From: Streptosporangiaceae bacterium
GTDB lineage: Bacteria > Actinomycetota > Actinomycetes > Streptosporangiales > Streptosporangiaceae
Reading direction: 5' to 3'
Length of the DNA: 64,000 nucleotides
NCBI GenBank assembly: GCA_025934375.1
Contig: JAICYD010000005.1
Span: 1-64,000 of the forward strand
Part shown: piece after piece, positions 7,197 through 32,796 of the stretch
Layout: every line of letters begins with the position of its first letter
Position numbering within the stretch: position 1 is the stretch's first letter
Made by a program: the position numbers and the translations under genes
The notes under the pieces: model-generated
Told to the model about the DNA's origin: nothing
What the model saw: only the letters and a program-made list of their open reading frames with translations
The model's database searches: none

Positions 7197-8051
7197 CTAG
7201 CGGGTCGAGACGGGGTTGAACCCGGACAAGGTCAGGTGGCCGGCGTCGACCGGGATGACGACGCCGGTCACCTTCGCGGCGAGGTCGGAGTTCAGGTACA
7301 GCGCGGTGTCCGCGATGTCCTGCGGGTCCAGCCACGAGGTGCCCTTCAGCAGCGTGTAGTGGAAGCCGCCCTCGTCCATGTCGGCCTCGGTGCCGCCGGG
7401 GTGGCCGGCCAGCATGTCCCACATGCCCTGGTGGTTGGTCATCGGCGTCTTGACGGCGCCCGGGCTGACCGCGTTGCACCGGATGCCGTGGGGGGCCAGT
7501 TCCAGCGCCAGGTTCTTCATCAGCCCGATGAGGCCATGCTTGGCGGCCACGTAGTGCGCGGTGTACTGCCCGGCCTCCAGGGCGTTGACCGACGCGGTGA
7601 TCACGATGGAACCGGACCCGCGCTCGATCATGTGCGGCGCAACCGCCTTGGCCGAGCGCCACACGCCGGACAGGTTAACCCCGACCATTTCCTCCCACGC
7701 CGCATCGGTCAGCTCCCAGAAGTTGCCGAGCGTCCAGATGCCGGCGTTGGCGATGAGGATGTCGATCTTGCCGAGCTCGGCGATCCCCGCCGCGACCGCC
7801 GCGTCCAGCTCGGCCTGGCTGCGGACGTCGGCCTTCATGGCGATGGCCCGGCGGTCCAGCGCCTCGACCTGCCGGACCGTCTCGTCCATGTCCTCGCGGG
7901 TGGCCAGCTTGTAGGAAACGCTCGGCAGCTGATCGAGGATGTCCACGATGATCACATCGGCGCCCTCGCGCGCGCAGGTCACCGCGTGCGCCCGCCCCTG
8001 TCCGCGCGCCCCTCCGGTAATGAAGGCCACCTTGCCGTCCAGCATGCCCAT
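7197..8051 (-). CDS. SDR family oxidoreductase, mycofactocin-coupled type
   Basis: NAD(P)-dependent short-chain dehydrogenase, 284 residues. The cofactor motif is TGGARGQGRAHA at residues 13-24, followed by ADVIIVDI. The catalytic residues are Ser in ITASVNA and YxxxK in YVAAKHG. The GARGQGRxHA signature and the long insert after the second strand (LDQLPSVSYKLATREDMDETVRQVE) are typical of mycofactocin-dependent SDRs, where the cofactor is not exchanged freely. The GGAGG ribosome site before 8051 supports the start. No mycofactocin synthesis genes are in the window. Substrate unknown, probably an alcohol. Confidence 0.88.
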   Translation of the reverse strand: MGMLDGKVAFITGGARGQGRAHAVTCAREGADVIIVDILDQLPSVSYKLATREDMDETVRQVEALDRRAIAMKADVRSQAELDAAVAAGIAELGKIDILIANAGIWTLGNFWELTDAAWEEMVGVNLSGVWRSAKAVAPHMIERGSGSIVITASVNALEAGQYTAHYVAAKHGLIGLMKNLALELAPHGIRCNAVSPGAVKTPMTNHQGMWDMLAGHPGGTEADMDEGGFHYTLLKGTSWLDPQDIADTALYLNSDLAAKVTGVVIPVDAGHLTLSGFNPVSTR

Positions 8052-10818: not shown

Positions 10819-12375
10819 TCACAGGAGCACAGTAGCGGCCTTTGCCCGCAGTTCCACCCGGCGGACCTTGCCGGTCGCGGTCGCCGGGTAGGAGTCCGTG
10901 AAGATCACCCGGCGCGGCCGCTTGAACGACGGCAGCCCGGTCCGGCAGTGCTCGATCAGCTCGTCCTCGGTGACGGTCGCCCCGGCGGTCTGCCCGGGCT
11001 CGAGGATCACGTAGGCCACGGGCTTTTCCAGCCCGTCTCCGTCATGGGCGGCCACCACCACGGCCTGGGAGACCGCCGGATGCGACAGCAGCCGCGCCTC
11101 GACTTCCATCGGGGAGACCCAGATGCCGCTGGCCTTGATCATGTCGCCGGTGCGCCCCAGGCAGGTGTAGTACCCGTCGTCGTCGCGCACGTAGGTGTCG
11201 CCGGTGCGCAGCCACTCGCCCTGGTACACCTGCCGGGAGGCGTCGTAGCGGGACCAGTAGCCGGTCGCCGCCGAAGCGCCCCGCACGAACAAGGTGGCCG
11301 GGACGTCATCGCCCACCTCCTGCCCGCTTTCCTCATCGACCAGCTTGAGGTCATACCCGGGCACCGCCCGCCCGGTGGTGCCCGCCCGCACCTGGCCGGG
11401 GGCGTTGGACAAGAAGATGTGCAGCATCTCGGTCATGCCGATGCCGTCGATGATGTCGATGCCGAAGTGAGCCGTCCACCGCTGGTACAGCGCGGCCGGC
11501 AGCGCCTCCCCGGCCGAGGCGGCCAGCCGGACCCCGGCCATGGCGTCGGCGGGCATCCCGGCCCGCAGCATGTTCGCGAAGAACGTCGGGCCGCCGAAGA
11601 ACAGCGTCGCCCCGTACTTCACGGCCGCCTCGGCGATCAGGTCCGGCCGCGACGGCGCCGCGTTCAGCACCGCTGACGCGCCCGCCGACAGCGGGAACAG
11701 CACCGAGTTCCCCAGCCCGTAGGCGAAGAACGCCTTGGCCGCCGACAGGCACCGGTCCTCCGCGCGGATGCCGAGGACCTGGGCGCCGTAGGTTTCGCAC
11801 ACCACCCGCACCGAGCCATGCCGGTGCATCGCCGCCTTCGGCGTCCCGGTGGTCCCCGACGTGTACAGCCAGAACGCGGGCGCGTCGGCCGAGGTGTCGT
11901 ACACCCTTTCATCCGGCGCGGCCGCCGAGACGTCGCCGAGCAGGTGCACCGGGACCGGGGCGCCCAGCGGGGCGACCGCGACAATCCCCGCGAGCTCGGG
12001 TGCCGCTTCGGCCGCGGCCGAAGCGACCGCCGCGAACTCCGGCGTGACGGCCAGGAACCGCGCCCGGGAGTCGCGCAGCAACTCGGTGACGCCTTCGGCG
12101 CGCAGCATGGTGGAGACCGGGACCGGGATGGCGCCGATGCGCATCGCGGCGAGGTACACCATGACGAACTCCGGCGTGTCGGCCATCAGCATCAGCAGCC
12201 GCTGCTCCGGCTCCAGGCCGACGGACCGCAGCCCGGCCGCGGTCCGGCACGCCATCTCGTGCAGCCCGGCGTAGCTCAGGTCGCCGGCCGCGCCGGCCAG
12301 CGCGACCCGCTCGCCGTCCCCGGCGGCCAGCCGCCGGTCGAGCAGGTAGTCGCACGCGTTGAACAGCTGCCCCAT
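10819..12375 (-). CDS. bclA: Benzoate-CoA ligase family protein
   Basis: AMP-forming acyl-CoA synthetase, 518 residues. The phosphate-binding loop is YTSGTTGTPKAAMH (about residue 170), the adenine motif is GIGMTEMLHIF, the hinge region is WLRTGDTYVRDDDGYYTCLGRTGDMIKASGIWVSP broken into its usual parts, and the catalytic Lys lies in TATGKVRR near the C-terminus. The GMTEMLHIFLSN segment and overall pattern match benzoate-CoA ligases rather than fatty-acid ligases. It supplies benzoyl-CoA to BoxB, encoded 30 bp upstream. A related aryl substrate such as 2-aminobenzoate or a halobenzoate cannot be excluded. Confidence 0.88.
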   Translation of the reverse strand: MGQLFNACDYLLDRRLAAGDGERVALAGAAGDLSYAGLHEMACRTAAGLRSVGLEPEQRLLMLMADTPEFVMVYLAAMRIGAIPVPVSTMLRAEGVTELLRDSRARFLAVTPEFAAVASAAAEAAPELAGIVAVAPLGAPVPVHLLGDVSAAAPDERVYDTSADAPAFWLYTSGTTGTPKAAMHRHGSVRVVCETYGAQVLGIRAEDRCLSAAKAFFAYGLGNSVLFPLSAGASAVLNAAPSRPDLIAEAAVKYGATLFFGGPTFFANMLRAGMPADAMAGVRLAASAGEALPAALYQRWTAHFGIDIIDGIGMTEMLHIFLSNAPGQVRAGTTGRAVPGYDLKLVDEESGQEVGDDVPATLFVRGASAATGYWSRYDASRQVYQGEWLRTGDTYVRDDDGYYTCLGRTGDMIKASGIWVSPMEVEARLLSHPAVSQAVVVAAHDGDGLEKPVAYVILEPGQTAGATVTEDELIEHCRTGLPSFKRPRRVIFTDSYPATATGKVRRVELRAKAATVLL

Positions 12376-12405
12376 CGCAGTGCCGTCCCTTGGTTAGGCC
12401 AGTAG

Positions 12406-13836
12406 TCAGGCGAGGTGAACGTAGTCGTAGTCGAACGGCTGCCCGTTGATGCCGCCGCCCTTGGGAGCACCGCGGGGCGGCGCCAGCCAGGCGGCGATCT
12501 TGCCCCGCTCGAGCACCGGGCGCATCAGCGACCGCACGAACGCCTTGTCAGTGTCCGTGGGCAGCCATGTGCCCTTATTCTGCTCCCACTCGGCGGCCTG
12601 GAGCACCTGCCCGGCGGGAGATACCTCGATCGCGGCGAACGCGCCGACCCGCCGGTTGAACGCCGGGTGCGGCAGCGCCAGCCGCTGCGGCAGCCCGGCC
12701 GATTCCAGGATCCGGTTCCACCGCTTGACGCCGCCCTCGCAGTCGGCGATGTACGCGCGGCGCAAGTCGGTGTTCAGCCCGGTCAGCGCCAGCACCTCGG
12801 CCTGCCCGAGCTGCCCGTCGACCAGCGCGTCGACCATGATGGAGTCGCTGGTCAGCAGGTGATCGTCCTTGCGCCGTTCCTCCATCCAGCGGCCCTTCAG
12901 CCCCGCGGTGTAATAGTTGGCGACGTTGGTGGAGGTCTCCCCGCCGAACAGGTCCAGCGAGACGGAGTAGTGGAAGTTCAGGTACTTCTGGATGACGCTC
13001 AGCGGGATCGCGCCGCGGGCGGCCACGTCATCGGTGTCGTTCTCGGCCATCACCTGCGCGGTGCGCTCGACCACCCGGTCCACCCCGGTGGTGCCCACCA
13101 TCATGTGATGGGCCTCTTCCTTGAGCATGAACTCGCACGTGCGCGACAGCGGGTCGAACGCGGACTCCTTCAGCGTGCCCAGCTGGTACTTGCCGTCCCG
13201 GTCGGTGAAGTAGGTGAACATGAAGAACGACAGCCAGTCCGGCGTCTCCTCGTTGAACGCCCCCAGGATCCGCGGTGAGTCCGCCGAGCCGGAGTTGCGG
13301 CGCAGCAGGTCGGCCGCCTCCTCACGGCCCTCGCGGCCGAAGTAGGCGTGCAGCAGGTACACCATCGCCCACAGGTGACGCCCTTCCTCCACGTTGACCT
13401 GGAACAGGTTCCGCAGGTCATACAGCGACGGCGCCGTCGCGCCGAGGTTGCGCTGCTGCTCCACCGACGCCGGCTCGGTGTCGCCCTGGATCACGATCAG
13501 CCGCTGCAGCTCAGCCCGGTACTCCCCGGGCACCTTCTGCCAGGCCGGCTCCCCCTTGTGCTGCCCGAACGCGATCCGCCGGCCCGGGTCGCGCTCGGCC
13601 AGGAAGATCCCCCACCGGTACTCGCTCATGGGCACGTGGCCGAACTGCGCCCACCCTTCGCCGCGCACGTCGATCGCGGTGCGCAGGTACACGTCCTGGG
13701 TCGGCAGCGTCGGGCCCATGTCCCGCCACCACGACAGGAAGTCCGGCTGCCAGGATTCCAGGGCCCGCTGCAGCCGCCGGTCCTCGTGCAGGCTGACGTT
13801 GTTGGGGATCTTCTCCGCGTAGTCGGGCGTGGTCAT
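12406..13836 (-). CDS. boxB: Benzoyl-CoA 2,3-epoxidase subunit BoxB
   Basis: Diiron oxygenase that adds one oxygen of O2 across C2-C3 of benzoyl-CoA. 476 residues, the usual length. The two halves of the diiron site are visible as EEGRHLWAM near residue 150 and KEEAHHMMVG near residue 240. Other BoxB blocks such as IPNNVSL at the N-terminus and NFHYSVSLDLFGGE are clear. It lies 2 bp after boxC, with its GAGGG ribosome site inside the boxC end. It needs electrons from BoxA, a flavin/iron-sulfur reductase, for which no gene is seen in the window. Confidence 0.95.
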   Translation of the reverse strand: MTTPDYAEKIPNNVSLHEDRRLQRALESWQPDFLSWWRDMGPTLPTQDVYLRTAIDVRGEGWAQFGHVPMSEYRWGIFLAERDPGRRIAFGQHKGEPAWQKVPGEYRAELQRLIVIQGDTEPASVEQQRNLGATAPSLYDLRNLFQVNVEEGRHLWAMVYLLHAYFGREGREEAADLLRRNSGSADSPRILGAFNEETPDWLSFFMFTYFTDRDGKYQLGTLKESAFDPLSRTCEFMLKEEAHHMMVGTTGVDRVVERTAQVMAENDTDDVAARGAIPLSVIQKYLNFHYSVSLDLFGGETSTNVANYYTAGLKGRWMEERRKDDHLLTSDSIMVDALVDGQLGQAEVLALTGLNTDLRRAYIADCEGGVKRWNRILESAGLPQRLALPHPAFNRRVGAFAAIEVSPAGQVLQAAEWEQNKGTWLPTDTDKAFVRSLMRPVLERGKIAAWLAPPRGAPKGGGINGQPFDYDYVHLA

Positions 13837-13838
13837 GG

Positions 13839-15587
13839 TCAGACCCTCTTCCGGTCGAAGGTGGCGCGCTTGCCGGTCCCGTAGGCGCGCAGGGCCCCGT
13901 CGGGGCCGGAGGCGTTGGGCCGGTAGAAGATCCAGTTCTGCCAGGCCGACAGCCGCGCGAAGATCTTGGTCTCGATGGTCTCCGGCCCGGCGAACCGGTA
14001 GTTCGCCTCCAGGCCGGTCAGCGCGTCCGGGGAGAACGAGGCCCGCTCCTCGATCGCGATCCGCACCTCGTCCTCCCAGTCGATGTCGTCGGGAGCGAAG
14101 GTGACCAGGCCGAGCTCCTCGGCCTCCTGCGCCGCCAGCGGCTCACCGCGCCGCTTCATCACGGCGGCCAGCCCGTCCGGGTCGCCGTGGAAGCGGGCCT
14201 GCAGCCGGGTCAGCCCATTGCCCATCAGCAACGAGGCATGAGGCGCCTCGGTGGTGTTGATCGCGCCCGCGGTGATCGTTGCGGGCCCGGCGTCCCCGTC
14301 GGCGTCTTCGAACAGGCCGGCGAGCATGTATGAGCGGTCCGCGGCGAGCGCCAGTTCCAGCAGCGACCCGGCGAAGCAGGACCCCGGCTCGATCAGCGCG
14401 ATCAGCGACCGCGAGGTCACGTCCAGCCGCTTGAGCGTCCGCTTCAGGTACAAGGCGATCTCCCGGGCGAGCCAGTCGGCGGGATTGTCCAGGAGCAGGC
14501 GGTCGTGGGCCAGCACCCGGTCCGGCGATCCAATGGTGCGCAAGACCCAGGTGCCGATCTCGGTCTCGTTGGTGCGCAGGTCCAAGATCAGGTCGTCGAG
14601 CTCGCGGGTCATCGCGAGGGTCCAGAAGCCGGCCCCCTGGGCGTGCACGTCCGCGATGGACGCGGGCGCGTCGCCCGCCGGGCCGTGCACGGTGATCTCG
14701 GCGACCCCCCGCCCCGCGTCCAGCCGCGCCGATACGTGCCGGTAGGAGATCGTGTCGCCGGTTCGCGTCTTGTCCAGCGGGGCGAGCGGTATCCCGGCCT
14801 CGTCACCGGATCGCTCGACCAGGCGGCGGCCTCCGTCACCGGCGCTGCCGCGGGCGATCGCCTGGGCGCGCTCGGATACCTGGTCCTGCCACCGCGCGCG
14901 CGGCACCACCTCATCGACCAGCCGCCAGGTGACTGCCTTCTTGCCGCCGATGCCCTCCGCCTTGGTGGCGAAGTAGTCGGCGATGTCCCGGCGGACGTGC
15001 CGCTTGTCCACCACCCGGGTCAGCCCGCCGGTCCCCGGCAGCACCCCGAGCAGCGGCAGTTCCGGGAGCGAGACGACCGAGGAACGGTCATCGATGAGCA
15101 TGATGTGCTGGCAGGCCAGGGCGAACTCGTAGCCGCCCCCGGACGCCGTTCCGTTCAGCGCGGCGATGTAGACCTGGCCGGAGTTCTCGCTCGCGTCCTC
15201 GATGCCGTTGCGGGTCTCGTTGGTGAACTTGCAGAAGTTCACCTTCCACGAGTGCGACGACGCCGCCAGCATCCGGATGTTCGCCCCGGCGCAGAAGACC
15301 TTCTCCTTGCCGCTGGTCACCACCACGGCCCGCACCCCGGGGTGCTCGAAGCGAAGGCGCTGCACGGCGTCGTAGAGCTCGATGTCCACGCCCAGGTCAT
15401 AGGAGTTGAGCTTCAGCTCATACCCCTCTACCAGGCCGCCTTGCTCGGCGACGTCCATGACCAGCGTCGCGACCTGGCCGTCGGTGGCCAGCCGCCAGTG
15501 CCGGTACGACTCGGGGCTGGTCCTGAACTCCACGCGAGACGCTCCCGCCCCCGCTGCCGGACGTCCCCCGGTGGCTGTGCTCGTCAT
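13839..15587 (-). CDS. boxC: 2,3-epoxybenzoyl-CoA dihydrolase BoxC
   Basis: Ring-opening enzyme of the box pathway; it hydrolyses the epoxide to 3,4-didehydroadipyl-CoA semialdehyde plus formate without oxygen. 582 residues with two crotonase-like halves. The oxyanion-hole segments are KEKVFCAGANIRML and NGTASGGGYEFALACQ in the first half, and a degenerate copy (GSCFAGSLLELALAADR) in the second. The start at 15587 is preferred to upstream codons because AAGGA lies 10 bases ahead and conserved sequence begins soon after. First structural gene of the operon, 62 bp downstream of the PaaX-like regulator. Confidence 0.93.
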   Translation of the reverse strand: MTSTATGGRPAAGAGASRVEFRTSPESYRHWRLATDGQVATLVMDVAEQGGLVEGYELKLNSYDLGVDIELYDAVQRLRFEHPGVRAVVVTSGKEKVFCAGANIRMLAASSHSWKVNFCKFTNETRNGIEDASENSGQVYIAALNGTASGGGYEFALACQHIMLIDDRSSVVSLPELPLLGVLPGTGGLTRVVDKRHVRRDIADYFATKAEGIGGKKAVTWRLVDEVVPRARWQDQVSERAQAIARGSAGDGGRRLVERSGDEAGIPLAPLDKTRTGDTISYRHVSARLDAGRGVAEITVHGPAGDAPASIADVHAQGAGFWTLAMTRELDDLILDLRTNETEIGTWVLRTIGSPDRVLAHDRLLLDNPADWLAREIALYLKRTLKRLDVTSRSLIALIEPGSCFAGSLLELALAADRSYMLAGLFEDADGDAGPATITAGAINTTEAPHASLLMGNGLTRLQARFHGDPDGLAAVMKRRGEPLAAQEAEELGLVTFAPDDIDWEDEVRIAIEERASFSPDALTGLEANYRFAGPETIETKIFARLSAWQNWIFYRPNASGPDGALRAYGTGKRATFDRKRV

Positions 15588-15648
15588 CTCTCGCGTCCTT
15601 ACCTCATTCGCCGGCCACGCGCGCCGATCCACGCCAATCCTGCTACAC

Positions 15649-16557
15649 CTAAGTAAACGTCCACGAATTCTTTGTAGCATTTCCAGCGCGGCCGCGGCAA
15701 CCCGCGGATAACGCCTCGTTCAGCCGCTTCCACTCGCGCCGCGCCTCGTCCAGCCACCGCTCGTGGCACTCGGTGAACAGCCGCGCGGCCCGGGCGCCGC
15801 TCCACCTCGCCGGCAGCAGCTCGCCGGGCAGCGCCGGGTCGATCGACGGGAACCGGCGCCAGGCGTGCACCAGCTCGACCTGGCGGACGAGCACGTCCGC
15901 GGGGGGCGGGCCGCCGAAGCCGGCCAGGAACGTCTCGTACTCGGCCTCCACCTCGGGCAGGTTCCACGCGGTGGCCACCATGGCGCTGGCGTCGCCCAGC
16001 CCGGTCCGGCGGGCCACGAACACGTGCGCGTCGTCGCCGACGCCGGCCTCGCGCAGCACCCGCTCGGCTTCCGCGGCCCGCTCCGGATGCGGGCTAATCC
16101 ACAAGCCGCTGGCCAGCGCGCCGAACCCGGCCCAGGTGAGCCGGGTGCGGACCACGTGCCGCGCGCGCCGGTCGGTGTCGGGGACGCGAGCCGACACGAT
16201 GACCCACCGCTGGTCCCAGGGCCGCTGCCGACCGAAGGAGTAGATGCGCTCGGCGCCGTCGGTCAGCAGCGTGCGCGCCGCCGGCGTCAGGGCCCAGCGG
16301 ACCCGGCGGCCATCCTTGCGCGGCTGGAGCCAGCCGGCGTTGCTGGTGCGCATCAGCGCCTGCCGGGTAGCCTTCTCGGCGATGCCCAGCCGCGCGAACG
16401 CGGCGAGCACCGCCGACGTCCACGCGGTGCCGTCGCCCGGCAGCACGAGCTCGCCCAGGAGGGTAAGCAGCAGGCCACGCGCGCTCGGCGCTCCCGCCTG
16501 GTGCCTGCGCGACACGGTAGGCGCCGCCGGCGCCTCCCCGGAGCTTCCGGGTGCCAC
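15649..16557 (-). CDS. PaaX-family transcriptional regulator
   Basis: 302 residues. An N-terminal winged-helix segment (ARGLLLTLLGELVLP, then EKATRQALMRTSNAGWLQPRKDGRR) is followed by the PaaX effector domain (RWVIVSARVPDTDRRARH) and the C-terminal PaaX_C region with the DVLVRQVELVHAWRRFP block. PaaX in other bacteria is a repressor released by phenylacetyl-CoA. Directly ahead of boxC in the same direction, this one most likely responds to benzoyl-CoA or another aryl-CoA and controls the box operon. The GTG at 16557 has GAGG upstream. The protein carries an Ala/Pro-rich N-terminal extension of about 25 residues. Confidence 0.9.
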   Translation of the reverse strand: MAPGSSGEAPAAPTVSRRHQAGAPSARGLLLTLLGELVLPGDGTAWTSAVLAAFARLGIAEKATRQALMRTSNAGWLQPRKDGRRVRWALTPAARTLLTDGAERIYSFGRQRPWDQRWVIVSARVPDTDRRARHVVRTRLTWAGFGALASGLWISPHPERAAEAERVLREAGVGDDAHVFVARRTGLGDASAMVATAWNLPEVEAEYETFLAGFGGPPPADVLVRQVELVHAWRRFPSIDPALPGELLPARWSGARAARLFTECHERWLDEARREWKRLNEALSAGCRGRAGNATKNSWTFT

Positions 16558-21051: not shown

Positions 21052-24000
21052 CTAGCTGACGCCGGCTGGCTGCGGCTCCGGCTGGGTGACCACGCCGCTG
21101 TCGGGCGGGTTCACCGAGCGCCGGTGGCCGAAGGCCAGGTACAGCACCGGGAGGATGAACAGGTTCAGCACCGTGGAGGTGGCCAGGCCGCCGAGGATCA
21201 CGATCGCCATCGGGTACTCGATCTCCTGGCCCGGCCGGTTGCCGTTAACCACCAGCGGCGCGAGGGCCAGCGCGGTCGCCAGCGCCGTCATGAGGATCGG
21301 CGCCAGCCGCTCGGAGGCCCCGCGCAGCACCAGGTCGCGGCCGAACGGCACGCCCTCCTGCTCTTCCAGGTGCCGGAAGTGGGCGATCATGAGGATGCCG
21401 TTGCGGGCCGCGATGCCGAGCACGGTGAAGAACCCGACCAGGGCGCCCAGCGTGATCGTGCCCAGCGACCCCCAGACGGCGAGCACCCCGCCGACCAGCG
21501 CCATCGGCAGCGTCAGCATGAGCAGCCACGCCAGCCGCCAGCTGCGGAACGCCACCTGCAGCAGCAGCAGGAGCGCGATCAGCGTGGCCAGGCCCAGCCA
21601 CAGCAGCCGCGTCTCCGCCTGCTGCCGCTCGGCCGCCTCGCCCTGCAGGGACAGCGAGTACCCGGTCGGCAACTGCTGCTTGGCCATCAGCTGCTTGACC
21701 ACCCCGGCAACCGCGCCGAGGTCGTAGCCGGGCGCCACGTTCGCGTCCACCTCGGTGAACCGGACGCTGTTGTCCCGCGAGATCTGGCTTGGGGTCGGCG
21801 CGATCTTGATCGTGGCCAGCTTGCCGAGCGGGACGCGCCTGCCGTCCGGCGTGTCCACCGGCAGTTTCTCCAGGGCAGCGACGCTGTTGCGGGCGGACGG
21901 GATGGTCCACGCGGCGACGTTGATGACCTGCCCGCCCGAGGTGATCGTCGCCACCGGCTCGCTGGACATCTCGATGGCGGCGAACCGGCGCACGTCACCC
22001 GGGGTTAGCCCGTATTTCTGGGCGACGGCCACGTTGACGGTGACGTCCGCCTCAGGGACGAACTCCAGCGGGGCCGGCTGCACGTCGACCAGGCCCGGGA
22101 CCTTGCTCATCTGCCCGGAGATCTTGCTGGCGATGCTTTGCAGCGTGCCGAAGTCGCTGCCGTAGACGTAGACGGCGACGTTCTCCGTGGTGCCGTTGGT
22201 GAGCACCTCGTCGATCCGCTCGTGCAGGTAGGTCTGCACGTCACTGAACGCGCCGGGGTAGCTGTCGGCGATCGCCCGCAGCTTGTTCAGCGTGACGTCG
22301 TAGTTGGCCGACGGCGACAGGCTCACCCAGGTCTCGGAGAAGTTGACGCCGTTGACCTCCTCGCCGGGGATCGCGATGCCGATGTGGCTGCCCGCGTCGG
22401 TCACGCCGGGGACCGCGAGGACCTGCTTTTGCAGGTTCGCCACCATGCGGGCCTGGTCCGACACCGCGGTACCGGGCTTGGTGACGAAGTGCATGAGGAA
22501 GTCCGGTTCCTTGAACGTCGGGAACAGGTCCTCGCCCAGGTGCGGGTACACCGTCAGGCCGCCGACGATCGCCACCGCGACCACCGCGGGCATGACCCAC
22601 CTGATCGCCCGCCAGGCGCGCGCCCCGTGCCGGCCGCCGCCCAGCAGCGGGCTGAGCACCGCGGCGTACCCGCGCTTGAGCACGCGCATCAGTGGCGGGT
22701 CCTTCTGCCCCAGCTTCGCGCCCGCCATCAGCATCAGGCCCAGGGCGGGCGTCACCGTCAGCGCGACCAGCATGGACGCCAGCACCGCGAGGCCGTAGGC
22801 GATGGCCAGGGGCTCGAAGAACGCCCCGGTCAGCCCGCCGACCACCATGACCGGGATGACCGCGACGATGTTGATGATGGTCGCGTAGAAGATCGCGACC
22901 CGGACCTCCAGCGAGGCGGCCAGCACCAGGTGCAGCGGCGTGGTCTTGTGCCCTTCGGCACGCCAGGCGCGCAATCGCCGCACGATGTTCTCCATGTCGA
23001 TGATCGCGTCATCGACGACGACTCCGACCGCGACCGCGAATCCGGCCAGGATCATCGTGTTGATCGTGGTGCCCAGGGCCGACAACACGATCGCGGCGGC
23101 CCCCAGCGACAGCGGGATGGCCAGCAGGCTGACCAGCGCCGCCCGCCACTGGAACAAGAACGCGATCAGCACGAACACCACGAGGATGCAGCCGATGATG
23201 ACCGCCAGCGTGAGGTTGTGGATCGCCATGTCGATGAACGTCGCCTGGCGGAAGATGTGGCTGTCGACCGTGATTCCTGGCAGCCCCGGCTGGAGCTGCG
23301 CGAGCGCCTGCTGGATGCCGTTGGTGACGTCGACCGTGTTCGCCCCGGGGAACTTCTCGATGACCATCATCAGCCCGGGCCCGCCGTTGATGACCGCGTC
23401 GCCCGCCAGCGGCGGGAAGTCGTACGTCACGTTGGCGACGTCGCCGACCGTGACGAACTTGCCGTTCTTCACGGCCAGCGGCACGCCCGCCATCTGGCTG
23501 GCCAGGTGGATCGGCTGGTCGTTATAGATGTCGAGCTGCTGGTTGCCGACGTTGATCGTGCCCAGTGACCCGACCGCGCCCGCGTTGGTGAACTTCAGCT
23601 CGCCGCTGTCGATGGCGTCCGCGGACGCGGACATGAGCGTGTCCAGCGAGACGTCGTTGGCCGCCATCTTCGCCGGGTCGGCCTCGACCATGATCTGCTT
23701 GTTGCGGAAGCCCCAGGTGGCGACGTTAGCGACGCCCGGCACCGCCATCAGCTTGGGCCGGATGGTGTACTGCGCGATCATCGACAGGTCCATCGGCGAC
23801 AGTGAGCTGGACGTCAGCCCGATCTGCACCACCCGGCTGGTGGCGGACACGATCGGGTACATCTGCGGGAAGTCGCACCACGACGGCAGCGTGTGCGCGA
23901 CCGCCTGCAACCGCTCCTGGACGAGCTGGCGGGCGTGCAGGTTATCGGTGCCGGACCGGAAGTACAGCCAGATCGCCGATAGCTGCGGCTCGGAGCTGGA

Positions 24001-24246
24001 CCTCACGTCGTAAACCCCGGGCACGCCCTGCAGGGCCTGCTCTAGCGGCACCGTGGTCAGGTTCTCGATCTCGTCCGGGGCCAGGCCCACGCATGACGTC
24101 TGGACCTCGACCGATACCGGCGCGAACTCCGGGAACACGTCCACCTTCTGGTGCCCGATGCCGATCGCCCCGAAGTAGAGCATGACGAATGCCAGCCCGA
24201 CCACCACGTACCGGAAGCGAAGGCTCGTCGCGACAATCCAGCGCAT
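21052..24246 (-). CDS. RND efflux permease, CzcA/AcrB-like (complete proton relay)
   Basis: 1064-residue HME/HAE-type RND transporter with the classic two-repeat plan. It has TM1 near the N-terminus (RYVVVGLAFVMLYFGAIG), a porter domain beginning VDVFPEFAPVSVEVQT, a TM2-6 block around residues 340-500 and a second TM block after residue 870. The TM4 proton-relay motif is intact (GVVVDDAIIDMENIVRRL), and TM10 has AARNGILMI with Arg where AcrB has Lys. Such pumps normally span two membranes in Gram-negatives; full CzcA-like pumps are uncommon in actinobacteria. It is the last gene of a three-gene operon. Substrate unknown: metals or small lipophilic compounds. Confidence 0.92.
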   Translation of the reverse strand: MRWIVATSLRFRYVVVGLAFVMLYFGAIGIGHQKVDVFPEFAPVSVEVQTSCVGLAPDEIENLTTVPLEQALQGVPGVYDVRSSSEPQLSAIWLYFRSGTDNLHARQLVQERLQAVAHTLPSWCDFPQMYPIVSATSRVVQIGLTSSSLSPMDLSMIAQYTIRPKLMAVPGVANVATWGFRNKQIMVEADPAKMAANDVSLDTLMSASADAIDSGELKFTNAGAVGSLGTINVGNQQLDIYNDQPIHLASQMAGVPLAVKNGKFVTVGDVANVTYDFPPLAGDAVINGGPGLMMVIEKFPGANTVDVTNGIQQALAQLQPGLPGITVDSHIFRQATFIDMAIHNLTLAVIIGCILVVFVLIAFLFQWRAALVSLLAIPLSLGAAAIVLSALGTTINTMILAGFAVAVGVVVDDAIIDMENIVRRLRAWRAEGHKTTPLHLVLAASLEVRVAIFYATIINIVAVIPVMVVGGLTGAFFEPLAIAYGLAVLASMLVALTVTPALGLMLMAGAKLGQKDPPLMRVLKRGYAAVLSPLLGGGRHGARAWRAIRWVMPAVVAVAIVGGLTVYPHLGEDLFPTFKEPDFLMHFVTKPGTAVSDQARMVANLQKQVLAVPGVTDAGSHIGIAIPGEEVNGVNFSETWVSLSPSANYDVTLNKLRAIADSYPGAFSDVQTYLHERIDEVLTNGTTENVAVYVYGSDFGTLQSIASKISGQMSKVPGLVDVQPAPLEFVPEADVTVNVAVAQKYGLTPGDVRRFAAIEMSSEPVATITSGGQVINVAAWTIPSARNSVAALEKLPVDTPDGRRVPLGKLATIKIAPTPSQISRDNSVRFTEVDANVAPGYDLGAVAGVVKQLMAKQQLPTGYSLSLQGEAAERQQAETRLLWLGLATLIALLLLLQVAFRSWRLAWLLMLTLPMALVGGVLAVWGSLGTITLGALVGFFTVLGIAARNGILMIAHFRHLEEQEGVPFGRDLVLRGASERLAPILMTALATALALAPLVVNGNRPGQEIEYPMAIVILGGLATSTVLNLFILPVLYLAFGHRRSVNPPDSGVVTQPEPQPAGVS

Positions 24247-24323: not shown

Positions 24324-24779
24324 TCAGGTCTCTTCCCCGACGCCGTTCTGCACGCCGAGGAGCTCTTCGGCGCCCGTGGTCACGACCGTCTGGCCGGGCG
24401 TGACCCCCGAGCTCACCACGACCGTGTTGCCGTCGATCGCGGCGACCTTCACGAAGTGCCGCAAGAAGGTGAGCTGCCCGGTGGGCACGTACACGGCCGC
24501 GGTGCCGTCGGGCTCATACAGCAGCGCCGAGTACGGGAAGGTCGCCTTGCCGCCCGCGTTCTCGACCGGGGCGGTCTGCAGGTTGATCCGCTCCTTGCCC
24601 ACCGGGGTGAGCACGACGCTCGGCACCGAGCTGCCCGGGGTGTTCTGCAGCGACGCGGTCGGCGGCCCCGACTGATCGGAGGAGCCGGTCGGCGCGCACC
24701 CCGCCGCCGCGGCCGCCACGATCGCGCCCGCCGCGAGGGCGAGGGGAACCGCGCGGCGCCTGTTCCTGTTCTTAGCCAT
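24324..24779 (-). CDS. Miniature RND adaptor-like lipoprotein
   Basis: 151 residues from ATG 24779: a twin-Arg-rich N-terminus (MAKNRNRRR), a hydrophobic stretch and a lipobox ending AAAAAGC, then a beta domain. The domain closely follows the membrane-proximal end of periplasmic adaptor proteins: ERINLQTAPVE, the strand FPYSALLYEPDGTAAVYV, LTFLRHFVKVAAIDGNTVVVSSG, and VTPGQTVVTTGAEELLGVQNG. The lipoyl and helical hairpin domains that reach an outer-membrane channel are absent. It sits between the two RND genes, 29 bp after the first and 77 bp before the second, so it is probably their outer-face partner. A start at 24803 is possible but would put charged residues further out. Confidence 0.82.
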   Translation of the reverse strand: MAKNRNRRRAVPLALAAGAIVAAAAAGCAPTGSSDQSGPPTASLQNTPGSSVPSVVLTPVGKERINLQTAPVENAGGKATFPYSALLYEPDGTAAVYVPTGQLTFLRHFVKVAAIDGNTVVVSSGVTPGQTVVTTGAEELLGVQNGVGEET

Positions 24780-24808
24780 GATCTGGGTACCTCTCTCAGG
24801 CATCTTTC

Positions 24809-27800
24809 TCAGACGCTCGTCTGGCGGGCCGTGGGCTCCTCAGACGACCGCTGCTGCGGCAGCATCTCCTCGCCCTCGGCGGACTCCGGATCGGGAGCGG
24901 CCAGCGATGAGCCCATCCGCAGGCACGCGGCCGGCAGCGCGAGCACGCCGACGAGCAGCAAGGTGGCCAGGCCGCCGAGCAGCACGCACGCGGCCGGGAA
25001 GAGCAGTTCCAGCCCGGCCTTCCCGTCCGAGACGGCGAAGGGAACCAGGGCCGCGCCGGTCACCACCGCGACGGTGAGCACGTGGCCCGCCGTGGTGGAC
25101 GCCGCGGCCGCGAACCGCGTGGCGAGGTCGGCCGCCCGGTCGTCATGGCCGGACACGCTGGCCCGCACCCGGACGTCAGCCCGGATCCGCGCGATGATGA
25201 TGATGGCCATCCGCGCGGCCAGCGCGAACAGGCCGAGCAGCCCGGCCACCGCGCCCAGCGAGCCCGCCCAGCCGGCCAGGAACAGCACCAGCATCCCGCC
25301 CGACATCGCCGCCGGGATGGACACGAACGCGATCACCGCCAGCCGCCAGCTGCGCACCGCCGCCTGGGTGATCAAGAAGACGCCCAGCAGTGCCGCCAGG
25401 ACGTAGGCGAGGAACGCCGGGAACGACGTGCCCGGCACCACGGTGTCGCCTGGCTGCGCTCCGGCCTGCGTGGCCGCGTCCAGCCCGGCGCCGCTCATCA
25501 CCTGGGTGTTGTACGACATCGGCAGCGCCAGCGAGGTCAGGCGGCTGGAGATGTCCGCGCTCACCGCGCTTATGCTGCGCCCGCTGACGTTCGCGGTCAC
25601 GTCGAGGTACAGGGCCGTGTTGTCGTGCTTGATGTCGGAGGGCTCGTTGGCGACGGCGATGCTCGCGACCTGCCCGAGCCGCACGTGCCCGTTATTGCCG
25701 TCGTCGATCAGCAGGTTCTGCAGGGCCTGCACGCTAGAGCGCACCGACGGGATCGAAAAGACGGTGACGTCGAAGACCTTGTCACTCTCGAAGAAGTTGC
25801 CGACGGTCAGGCCCTCGGTCAGCGTCGCGACCTCGCGCCGGATGTCGCCTGCCGCTAGCCCGTACCGCTCCGCGTTGTCGAGGTTGACGGTGACGGCGAG
25901 GGTCGGCTGCCGGGCCGGGAGCTGAACCTGAGCGCCCTGGACCCCGCTGACCCCGGCCATCACCGACTTGACCTGCCCGGCGACCTTCTCCAGGGTCGGG
26001 TAGTCGGTGCCGAACACGCGAGTCACGACGTCGCCGGGCGGCGTGGTCAGCACGCCGCCGAGGGCATCGCTCTCGTAGGTGGTCACGGTGCCCCGGATGC
26101 CCGGGGTGCCGTTGGCGACCGCCTTGATCGCGGCGAGCGTTGAGTCGTAGTCCGCGTCTGGCTTGATCGTCACCCACAGCTGGCCGGAGTTGGTGGCGAC
26201 GATCTGGTTGGAGGTGAGCGCCCGCCCGAGGGTCGCGCCCACGTCCTGCACGCCGGGGATTGACTCCAGGTCGTTGCTGGCGATCGTGGCGACGCGGTTC
26301 ATCTCGGTCAGCGACATGCTGGGCGAGCCGGTCCACTGGACGACCAGGTTCCGGTCGGCGAAGCTCGGCTGGGCCGGGTGCAGGAACGGTATCCCGGCGA
26401 TCACGGCGATCCCCGCGACCGCGCACAGCGCGGGCACCACCAGGGCTGGCATCCGGCCGATGCCGCGCAGGGTGCGGGAGTAGCCGTGGGACAGCCGGCC
26501 CTGGATCGCCGCGATCGCGCGCGGCGGGTGCTGGGGGCCGACGCTGGAGACCAGCGATGTCAAGGCGGTGGAGATCCCCGCCGCGATGATTACCGACCCG
26601 GCCACGGCCACCAGGTAGGCCACCGCCATGGGCCGCAGGAAGGACGCCGTCGTGCCCGAGGAGACCAGCAGCGGGACCGCCGCCAGCACGGCCACGATGA
26701 GCCCGGCGCCCAGCCCCGGCACGAAGCCTGCGGATGCCGCGTCCGCCACGACCAGTCCGAGGGCGAGCAGCAGCCCCAGGAGCACCAGTGCGTTGAGCGT
26801 GTAGCCCATGACGAACAACAAGATGATCGCCACCGACAGCGACACCGCGATGGACGCCACCGCGACGAACGCGGTCCGCAGTGACATCAGCAGCAGGAGC
26901 AGGGCGAGCGCCGCGAGCACCGCCGCGAGGATGGCGGCGGTCCGCAGGTTGTCGTTCGCGCTGGTGGCGTACGTGCTCGCCTGGAACAGCGACGTGTCAA
27001 CGGTCACGCCCGGCATGCCCGGGGCGAGCTGGGCCAGCGCCTGCCGCACCTCGCGGTTGATCTGCGGCACGCTGGCGCCCGGCAGCTTCTGGATCACCAG
27101 GACCAGGCCCGGGGTGCCGTGCACCAGGGCGTCGCCAATGAGCGGCTGGTGCCCGGTGACGACCTGCGCGACGTCGCCGATCGTGATCTTCGTGGAGTCG
27201 GCGATCGGCAGCCCGGTCATGTTGGCGGGCGTGCCGAACGGCAGGATGTGCCGGATGTCGAGCCGCTGGTTCGATCCCTCGATGTAGCCGCCGGTGCCCG
27301 GGGCCGACCCCTGCAGGTAGGTGATCGGCGAGACGAGCTGGGAGTTACCCGCGGTCTGGACGACCTGCGCCAGCGTCACGTGCTTGGCGGCGAGCTTGGC
27401 CGGGTCCACTTGTACCTGGAGTTGCCGGTCGGCCTGCCCGAAGGTCGAGATGTTGGCGACCCCGTCCAGGCCCAGCAGCTTGGGCACGATGGTCCACCGC
27501 GACAGCACCGACAAGTCGATGATGCTCTGGGTCTTGGAGGTGATGCCGACCAGCATCGTGTTGCTAGTCGTGGACACGGGCTGCACCATCGTCGGCGGGC
27601 TGGACACGTTCGGCAAGATGAACGCCGAGTTCAGCCGCTCCTGCACCAGCTGGCGGGCGCGGTACAAGTCGGTGCCCGGGGCGAAGTGCAGCTCAATGTC
27701 CGATAGCCCGGGGATTGAGTCCGAGGTCATGTCGGTCGTGCCGAGGATGCCGGACAAGAGGTTCTTCTCCAGCGGCACGGTGACAAGCTCCTCGACCTCC

Positions 27801-27973
27801 GGCGCGGAAAGGCCCAGCGCCTCGATCTGGACATCGACGGTCACCGGCGACGTCTCCGGGAGGGTATCGGTGGACATGCGCGGCAACGTCAAGATGCCCG
27901 CGACGATTATCCCGGCCGCTACCGCGATAACCAGGATGCGAAAACGGGTGAAAGCATCAATAACGGTACGCAC
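24809..27973 (-). CDS. RND efflux permease-like protein lacking most proton-relay acids
   Basis: 1054 residues with full RND architecture: porter domain with TDTLPETSPVTVDVQI, two TM blocks and a C-terminal AARMAIIIIARIRADV in TM10. It is clearly a relative of the second pump of the operon. In TM4 the usual VDDAIxxxEN is replaced by VVADAASAGFV, leaving only one acidic residue of the relay. TM10 keeps Arg but loses the usual Asn. The protein is therefore probably not an independent proton-driven pump and may form mixed trimers with the downstream homolog. First gene of the operon, GTG start at 27973. Confidence 0.9.
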   Translation of the reverse strand: MRTVIDAFTRFRILVIAVAAGIIVAGILTLPRMSTDTLPETSPVTVDVQIEALGLSAPEVEELVTVPLEKNLLSGILGTTDMTSDSIPGLSDIELHFAPGTDLYRARQLVQERLNSAFILPNVSSPPTMVQPVSTTSNTMLVGITSKTQSIIDLSVLSRWTIVPKLLGLDGVANISTFGQADRQLQVQVDPAKLAAKHVTLAQVVQTAGNSQLVSPITYLQGSAPGTGGYIEGSNQRLDIRHILPFGTPANMTGLPIADSTKITIGDVAQVVTGHQPLIGDALVHGTPGLVLVIQKLPGASVPQINREVRQALAQLAPGMPGVTVDTSLFQASTYATSANDNLRTAAILAAVLAALALLLLLMSLRTAFVAVASIAVSLSVAIILLFVMGYTLNALVLLGLLLALGLVVADAASAGFVPGLGAGLIVAVLAAVPLLVSSGTTASFLRPMAVAYLVAVAGSVIIAAGISTALTSLVSSVGPQHPPRAIAAIQGRLSHGYSRTLRGIGRMPALVVPALCAVAGIAVIAGIPFLHPAQPSFADRNLVVQWTGSPSMSLTEMNRVATIASNDLESIPGVQDVGATLGRALTSNQIVATNSGQLWVTIKPDADYDSTLAAIKAVANGTPGIRGTVTTYESDALGGVLTTPPGDVVTRVFGTDYPTLEKVAGQVKSVMAGVSGVQGAQVQLPARQPTLAVTVNLDNAERYGLAAGDIRREVATLTEGLTVGNFFESDKVFDVTVFSIPSVRSSVQALQNLLIDDGNNGHVRLGQVASIAVANEPSDIKHDNTALYLDVTANVSGRSISAVSADISSRLTSLALPMSYNTQVMSGAGLDAATQAGAQPGDTVVPGTSFPAFLAYVLAALLGVFLITQAAVRSWRLAVIAFVSIPAAMSGGMLVLFLAGWAGSLGAVAGLLGLFALAARMAIIIIARIRADVRVRASVSGHDDRAADLATRFAAAASTTAGHVLTVAVVTGAALVPFAVSDGKAGLELLFPAACVLLGGLATLLLVGVLALPAACLRMGSSLAAPDPESAEGEEMLPQQRSSEEPTARQTSV

Positions 27974-31794: not shown

Positions 31795-32796
31795 ATGGCG
31801 ATGCCACTGCACCTCACGGTGAAGCTCGGGACGTACCTGATGAAGCAGAAGGTCAAGGGCGTCAAGAAGTACCCGCTGATCATGGAGCTTGAGCCGCTGT
31901 TCGCGTGCAACCTCAAGTGCGTGGGCTGCGGCAAGATCCAGCAGCCGCACACGCTGCTCAAGCAGCGAATGCCGGTCGAGCAGGCGATCGCGGCGGTCGA
32001 GGAGTGCGGCGCGCCCATGGTCTCGATCGCCGGCGGCGAGCCGCTGATGCACCCGCAGGTCCACGAGATCACCGCTGAGCTGCTCAAGCGCAAGAAGTTC
32101 GTGGTGCTGTGCACGAACGCGATCCTGCTGCCCAAGCACATCGACAAGTTCAAGCCGAGCAAGAACTTCGCCTGGATGGTTCACCTCGACGGCCTCGGCG
32201 AGCGGCACGACGAGGCGGTCGCCAAGGAGGGCGTGTTCGACCAGGCGGTCGCGGCGATCAAGCTCGCCAAGGAAAAGGGCTTCCAGGTCTACACGAACAC
32301 CACGGTGTTCAACACGGACACGCCGCAGGACCTCATCGACACGATGGAGTACCTGAACAACGAGCTCAAGGTCGACCGGATGCAGATCGCCCCCGGCTAC
32401 GCCTACGAGAAGGCCCCCAGCCAGGACCGCTTCCTCGGGGTGCAGCAGACCCGCGAGCTGTTCAGCAAGACGTTCGCCGATGGGCGGCGCAAGAAGTGGC
32501 GGCTCAACCACTCGCAGCTGTACCTGGACTTCCTCGAGGGCAAGAAGGAGTTCGAGTGCACCCCGTGGGGCGTCCCGCTGTACTGCCTCAAGGGCTGGCA
32601 GAAGCCGTGCTACCTGATGGACGACGGCTACGCCGCCACCTGGAAGGAGCTCCTCGAGGACACCGACTGGGACAGCTTCGGCCGCGGCAAGGACCCGCGC
32701 TGCGACAACTGCATGGCGCACTGCGGCTACGAGCCGACCGCCGTCCTCGCGACGATGGACTCCCTGCGCGAAAGCCTCCGCTCCCTCGTCGGCTAA
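31795..32796 (+). CDS. hpnH: Adenosyl-hopene transferase HpnH (radical SAM)
   Basis: Radical SAM enzyme joining a 5'-deoxyadenosyl group to diploptene, the first step to extended (C35) hopanoids. 333 residues, standard length. The [4Fe-4S] motif is CNLKCVGCGK at about residues 38-47. The GGEP SAM-binding block is SIAGGEPLMHP. The C-terminal cysteines (CLKGWQKPCYL and CDNCMAHCGYE) match the extended family domain. GAAGGG lies ahead of the ATG. No squalene-hopene cyclase or other hpn gene is in the window, so this copy is isolated, paired only with a divergent TetR regulator. Confidence 0.94.
   Translation: MAMPLHLTVKLGTYLMKQKVKGVKKYPLIMELEPLFACNLKCVGCGKIQQPHTLLKQRMPVEQAIAAVEECGAPMVSIAGGEPLMHPQVHEITAELLKRKKFVVLCTNAILLPKHIDKFKPSKNFAWMVHLDGLGERHDEAVAKEGVFDQAVAAIKLAKEKGFQVYTNTTVFNTDTPQDLIDTMEYLNNELKVDRMQIAPGYAYEKAPSQDRFLGVQQTRELFSKTFADGRRKKWRLNHSQLYLDFLEGKKEFECTPWGVPLYCLKGWQKPCYLMDDGYAATWKELLEDTDWDSFGRGKDPRCDNCMAHCGYEPTAVLATMDSLRESLRSLVG

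Follow-up and report, generated by a model that had tools for sequence, protein, structure and literature searches.

A three-gene cassette, A-M-B, encodes two RND proteins, of which B carries an intact proton relay and A a degraded one, and its products probably form one RND efflux complex (to which a probability of roughly 55% is assigned), where B would be the driven and substrate-handling subunit and A a structural partner, most likely in a mixed trimer with B. The cassette lies in the window, that is, the whole stretch of 64,000 nucleotides from a Streptosporangiaceae contig that was analysed, and ORF calling places its genes tightly packed on the minus strand: A at 24809..27973 (1054 aa, GTG start), M at 24324..24803 (159 aa), a lipoprotein-like protein that is what remains of a periplasmic adaptor (membrane fusion protein; TIGR01730), and B at 21052..24246 (1064 aa), with the relay DDRRTEN and the porter-cleft residues His-Glu-Glu. 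A and B share approximately 33% identity, and both are assigned to the RND superfamily by PF00873 (ACR_tran), against which they score 414 bits (E 1.5e-123) and 705.6 bits, respectively, at a gathering cut-off of 28. ZneA is the best solved relative by sequence for either protein.

The relay columns were set by alignment with E. coli AcrB, CusA, MdtB, and MdtC and, in the order D407, D408, K940, R971, T978, E414, N415, window A reads ADRTV--. Specifically, Ala410 sits in the AcrB D407/CusA D405 column, Asp411 keeps the second Asp in the D408 column, and Arg921 (25211..25213, minus strand, by alignment) is kept in the K940 column of TM10, while the R971 and T978 columns hold Thr and Val, the relay Arg of TM11 being gone at Thr961 (25091..25093, minus strand, counted from His964 in the AcrB 974 column), and the E414-N415 columns fall inside a deletion of approximately 29 codons. 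Relay loss in window A, as judged from the alignment, is real but partial: the sequence-only reading, which had considered the proton-relay residues of A lost, is right for the equivalents of D407, R971, T978, and E414-N415, but not for those of D408 and K940, which remain. The same reading had described the TM4 motif VDDAIxxxEN as replaced. A contains LGLVVADAASAGFVPG and its partner B contains VGVVVDDAIIDMENIV, so that TM4 reads VVADAASAGFV in A versus VVDDAIIDMEN in B, and residues 405-416 of A (26726..26761, minus strand, computed from the start at 27973) span the motif and the beginning of the TM4-TM5 deletion; the motif is indeed degraded, with Ala410 in place of Asp, but Asp411 is kept and the EN pair has been removed mainly by deletion. 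The partner at 21052 had been said to retain the motif, and window B does so with every relay residue in place.

The deletion is visible in the distance between the D408 and AcrB-461 columns, which is 29 residues in window A and 58 residues in 56/64 B and 38/64 A proteins, so that window A lacks part of the cytoplasmic TM4-TM5 region. Among the 64 cassettes the short form occurs only in window A and in L001, a protein of 87% identity with the same 29 residues. Aligning 'SAGFV' as a replacement of 'IIDMENIV' was ruled out, since 29 versus 58 residues denotes a deletion, and the idea of a frame-shifted remnant of the missing motif was discarded as well, because a stretch of 29 codons, where 58 are usual, is too short to contain it. 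In other A proteins the TM4-TM5 loop has gained long insertions, the D408-to-461 stretch reaching up to 137 residues. The loop (residues 412-420 of window A) is free to vary in A. Asp411 is the sole charged residue of the TM4 helix of window A and the alignment shows no acidic residue in TM10; therefore, acidic residues that rebuild a relay, which had been named as a refutation of the loss, are not visible in TM4 or TM10 of this protein. The AlphaFold model of A, built on 27 aligned sequences with a mean pLDDT of 68.4 (moderate confidence), keeps the architecture expected of the RND superfamily, 12 TM helices and two periplasmic porter/docking insertions, with TM4 and TM5 shortened and a short link between them, and its best PDB match is CusA, with a TM-score of up to 0.79 normalised to the query, in keeping with a CusA-type fold.

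A scan of one genome per species returned 54 loci encoding relatives, and the three genes recur together at many of these loci. With A as query and E 1e-60 as the upper limit, matches were obtained in 10/341 genomes of the family, in 6/394 genomes drawn from the class, in 17/396 genomes drawn from the phylum, and in 11/400 genomes sampled from the phylum to which a Ktedonobacterales (Chloroflexota) genome belongs, a genome with an A match not always carrying the full A-M-B cassette. Besides the window, 63 cassettes of Actinomycetota and Chloroflexota were collected, with the gene order A-M-B in all of them, and A is directly followed by M and then by B at the cassette loci, apart from a few that a contig end or a frame break interrupts (L098, L101, L102, L103, L116-L118); the conservation of the cassette is read from these sequences.

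All 64 cassettes were scored at the seven relay columns D407, D408, K940, R971, T978, E414, and N415, and the decay is strongly asymmetric. The full relay DDRRTEN is found in 62/64 B proteins, the exceptions being the frame-broken L020_B and L036_B with Gln for E414, and in only 3/64 A proteins (L006, L099, and L109). Asp occupies the D407 column in all 64 B proteins and in 37/64 A proteins, a contrast larger than chance would give; in the remaining 27/64 A proteins it has been lost to Gly (15), Ala (7), His (3), Ser (1), or Asn (1). The other columns of A have fared unequally, and the loss is partial and stepwise: E414 is kept in 9 of the 64 proteins and R971 in 44, while 59 proteins have Asp at D408 and 58 have Arg at K940. 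When a tree of A was built without the relay columns, the state of D407 required six changes, five of which are forced by well-supported branches; this tree comes from a quick IQ-TREE search with no bootstrap, seven near-copy or truncated A rows being left out and three A rows of incomplete cassettes being included. The decay is thus repeated and not one inherited accident, with at least six independent losses of the D407 position in A. The proposal that relay residues have gone from one co-encoded RND protein but not from its partner is upheld by the counts of 3/64 and 62/64 and by at least six losses of D407. As to whether the substitution is fixed in the clade, a check that had been advised, D407 is lost in 27/64 A proteins and Asp persists in 37/64. 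Orthologs that keep the motif, which had been named as a refutation, do exist as the three relay-intact A proteins, and they are read as the ancestral state; L006 and L099 stand at the base of A on the same tree. In a FastTree of all rows (with 26 rows removed, namely 13 distant single RNDs, L020_B with its frame break, and near-copies of Arthrobacter and Catellatospora), A emerges as a single clade from within B-like proteins, and MdtB pairs with MdtC outside the group formed by A and B with a support of 100, the outgroup branches being long.

The porter cleft was followed at the columns of CusA M573, E625, and M672, which are named as Cu(I) ligands in PMC8092243. His-Glu-Glu occupies these columns in 63/64 B proteins and in 2/64 A proteins (L078 and L079); it is also present in the solo RND of L100 and in L032 and L034, two single RNDs from Gram-negative bacteria. 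Window A has Gln-Gln-Gly, and the clefts of the three relay-intact A proteins read QQQ, QTQ, and DQN, with His-Glu-Glu already gone. As these three proteins keep the relay without the cleft residues, the comparison suggests that substrate handling may have been lost in A before the relay, although the A proteins of L078 and L079, with His-Glu-Glu, speak against a simple one-way loss.

Conversely, other parts of A are well kept. When the window is compared with L001, A has a dN/dS (Nei-Gojobori) of 0.40 over 804 codons, whereas the values of B and M are 0.25 and 0.72; A is under purifying selection and is not a pseudogene. The divergence of A relative to B, measured as the A/B ratio in 43 thinned cassettes, is 0.93 (bootstrap 0.90-0.95) over the N-terminal porter and docking part and 1.24 over the C-terminal part, and it reaches 1.84 in TM2-6 and 1.89 in TM8-12. 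A finer division used 55 of the 64 cassettes, as did the survey of charges in TM4 and TM10 and the analysis of column conservation, and with domain limits that we assume to follow AcrB it gives ratios of 0.78 for DN, 0.92 for PN1, 2.86 for TM4, 4.0 for TM10, 2.61 for TM11, and 2.69 for TM12. Columns conserved at 85% or more in these 55 cassettes number 31 in A versus 11 in B for DN, 14 versus 44 for PC1, and 2 versus 16 for TM10, and 12 of the 18 columns that are conserved in A but not in B fall in DN and PN1. By these ratios and columns, A keeps its periplasmic N-half and docking domain, while constraint has relaxed along the proton path and in the cleft. Fixed differences between A and B (at least 85% in each, 55 cassettes) amount to only four columns, which by themselves do not imply a mixed interface.

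The third protein, M, is a shortened adaptor of which the membrane-proximal part is left. Against TIGR01730 (RND_mfp) it scores 27.2 bits over positions 248-313 of 322, below the cut-off of 94.9, and the homology to the family is weak by that cut-off, while the predicted structure points to a membrane-proximal adaptor fold: the AlphaFold core of M has a pLDDT above 90, and Foldseek retrieves the membrane-proximal parts of CusB (3ne5_C, E 9.8e-4), a SilB construct, AcrA, MexA, ZneB, and BesA, one match only having an E below 0.001 and the partial-length TM-scores being 0.34-0.40 by query. A profile of M matches the full-length adaptors encoded beside Gram-negative single RNDs in two pieces, e.g., 43-90 and 267-350 in L032, separated by approximately 170-240 adaptor residues; the middle is absent from M, and we take it to comprise the lipoyl domain and the hairpin. 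M thus resembles the membrane-proximal domain of CusB, ZneB, AcrA, and BesA in sequence and fold and differs from these full-length adaptors in being only approximately 150 aa long, without the middle part. A lipobox-like Cys is present in most M proteins and absent from those of Catellatospora in the alignment. Apart from M, RND_mfp has no match in the host genome, in which (at 92% completeness) no outer-membrane channel of the OEP (TolC-type) family was found. Actinomycetota and Chloroflexota generally lack an outer membrane.

The preferred mechanism combines these observations. A and B go back to one old duplication, after which A would have lost first the cleft residues that B conserves and then the relay, piecemeal and independently in many lineages, while B would act as the proton-driven, substrate-handling protomer. 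The retention of A would be explained by a need for its N-terminal porter and docking domains, A most likely serving as a protomer that is not driven itself but sits in a mixed trimer with B, and M probably caps the complex on its outer face, since there is no outer-membrane channel to reach. The conservation of the cassette, the one-sided decay, the purifying selection, and the anatomy of M are read from sequence; the mixed trimer with its stoichiometry, the lack of transport by A, the position of M, and the substrate are inferred. The conservation of the N-terminal porter and docking domains in A fits a structural role, in partial agreement with the division of labour and the structural A subunit suggested by the sequence-only reading: these domains are conserved under purifying selection, but A has also lost the cleft residues, unlike MdtBC, where energy and binding are divided between the two subunits. 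The more specific form of the mechanism, i.e., an obligate mixed trimer with a pseudo-pump protomer that lost its cleft first and its relay later and many times, served by a hairpin-less mini-adaptor, is put forward tentatively, at slightly worse than even odds.

The closest parallel is MdtBC of MdtABC, with MuxBC and SmeJK among the heterotrimeric HAE-1 systems, which shares two adjacent RND genes, one old duplication, and unlike roles of the subunits, according to PMC4338810, PMC7015380, and PMC10872679; MdtBC is reported to be active as a B2C heterotrimer with two subunits of different roles (PMC4338810, PMC12802153). The proposed pump resembles MdtBC, yet it stems from an independent duplication, as MdtB and MdtC fall outside the A/B group, and one subunit has its relay decayed, whereas E. 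coli MdtB and MdtC both read DDKRTEN. Moreover, MdtBC, reported from Proteobacteria, employs a full adaptor and TolC, whereas M is shortened, and the relay of MdtB matters more while substrates bind MdtC, whereas in the cassette the relay and the conserved cleft residues are united in B. Among HME-RND pumps (CusA, ZneA, CzcA) are the closest solved structures, ZneA by sequence for A and B and CusA by fold for A, and the Asp of the CusA D405 column is present in B. The heavy-metal pump label was nevertheless rejected: A and B score 278.2 and 543.8 bits against TIGR00914 (HME-RND) and do not reach its cut-off of 701.45, the CusA residues D405/E939/K984 correspond to D, R, and I in B and to A, R, and V in window A, so that E939 and K984 are absent, and the Met site of CusA is absent too, being His-Glu-Glu in B and the above triplet in window A.

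The adjacency of A, M, and B also fits two separate homotrimers sharing M, and this counts against the mixed trimer. In such an arrangement, considered unlikely, A would be proton-independent (a valve, a sensor, or a scaffold for substrate or lipid) and would share only the operon and M with B; the A-specific conserved columns, 12 of 18 of which lie in DN and PN1, might just as well be needed for an A homotrimer, and the decayed cleft of A is compatible with it, but A is followed directly by M and B at the cassette loci, contig ends and frame breaks apart, and the adjacent paralogous RND pairs studied so far (MdtBC) form heterotrimers (PMC4338810, PMC12802153). The retention of D407 in 37/64 A proteins, and of D408 and the K940-column Arg in most of them (59 and 58 of 64), also weighs against the preferred reading, and some relay-like function may persist in A. 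Taken further, these counts, both Asp residues being present in 37/64 A proteins, and the complete fold of the predicted model would agree with an A that is still proton-coupled through Asp411 (D408 column) and Arg921 alone, with a changed substrate site. This is judged improbable, in view of the six losses of D407, a column that corresponds to CusA D405, mutation of which stops transport (PMC8092243), of the lack of R971 and T978 equivalents in window A, and of the divergence of TM10, TM11, and TM12, 2.6 to 4 times faster than in B, which is unexpected if they carry protons.

The approximately 29-codon deletion and the faster evolution of the TM helices could also be signs of a decaying pseudogene, or the loss of the motif could be an assembly error. 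Such an origin is very improbable and was rejected, since A has an open frame of 1054 codons and a dN/dS of 0.40 over 804 codons, the same deletion recurs in a second species (L001, 87% identity), and A is retained in two phyla with an N-half as conserved as that of B. For the mixed trimer of B with a non-driven A, published evidence on related pumps points both ways: CusA protomers are proposed to work independently (PMC8092243), which would allow a driven protomer to work beside a dead one, whereas a covalently linked AcrB trimer loses all pump function once a single protomer has been inactivated (PMC8277102), which argues against tolerating a dead protomer, if the A-M-B pump rotates. A natural pump family with a relay-less protomer across two phyla would turn this dispute between AcrB (PMC8277102) and CusA (PMC8092243) into an experiment.

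RND pumps are taught as homotrimers in which every protomer cycles. If true, a pseudo-pump trimer would be a natural test of whether all RND protomers must turn (functional rotation) or can work independently. The cassette also represents an RND system with a shortened adaptor in a host genome where no outer-membrane channel gene was found. A description of the A-M-B cassette was not found in the open-licence PMC literature, as judged by titles and the beginnings of abstracts. A 2024 survey of RND permeases left out Actinobacteria and Chloroflexi by design (PMC10872679), and a duplicated RND pair has been reported from Proteobacteria (PMC7015380). The duplicated pair is known; the decay of the relay in one partner, the hairpin-less adaptor, and the occurrence in Actinomycetota and Chloroflexota set the cassette apart from it.

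Some loci depart from the common arrangement. L100 (Chloroflexota) is an exception, with a single intact RND and neither A nor M; this RND (L100:3955-8127) carries the relay DDRRTEN and the cleft HEE and has a secreted family C gene downstream, and it possibly represents the unduplicated form. L110 has two M-like genes, one on either side of A (7241-7696 and 10943-11554). Two diverged A-M-B cassettes per genome occur as L087 and L088 (G042) and as L010 and L119 (G700, Arthrobacter), each with a degraded A. Family C comprises secreted proteins or lipoproteins of approximately 300 aa with the motifs TDLTKVI.GV and GEYPEEY (e.g., L010:12178-13113 and L108:10840-11748), and its gene lies within approximately 130 bases after B or overlaps B in 27/63 cassettes, is upstream in one more, and is absent from the window; family C is a possible fourth component of the cassette, and six examples (L010, L019, L025, L094, L114, and L085) have no Pfam match. 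Two-component and TetR genes stand beside some cassettes in no constant pattern, and nothing was gained from these neighbours, family C included, as a clue to the substrate. Elsewhere in the window, benzoyl-CoA epoxidation genes (benzoate-CoA ligase, boxB, boxC, and a PaaX-like regulator) are encoded at 10819-16557 on the minus strand, and the hopanoid gene HpnH, for adenosyl-hopene transferase (TIGR03470, 498 bits), lies at 31795-32796 on the plus strand.
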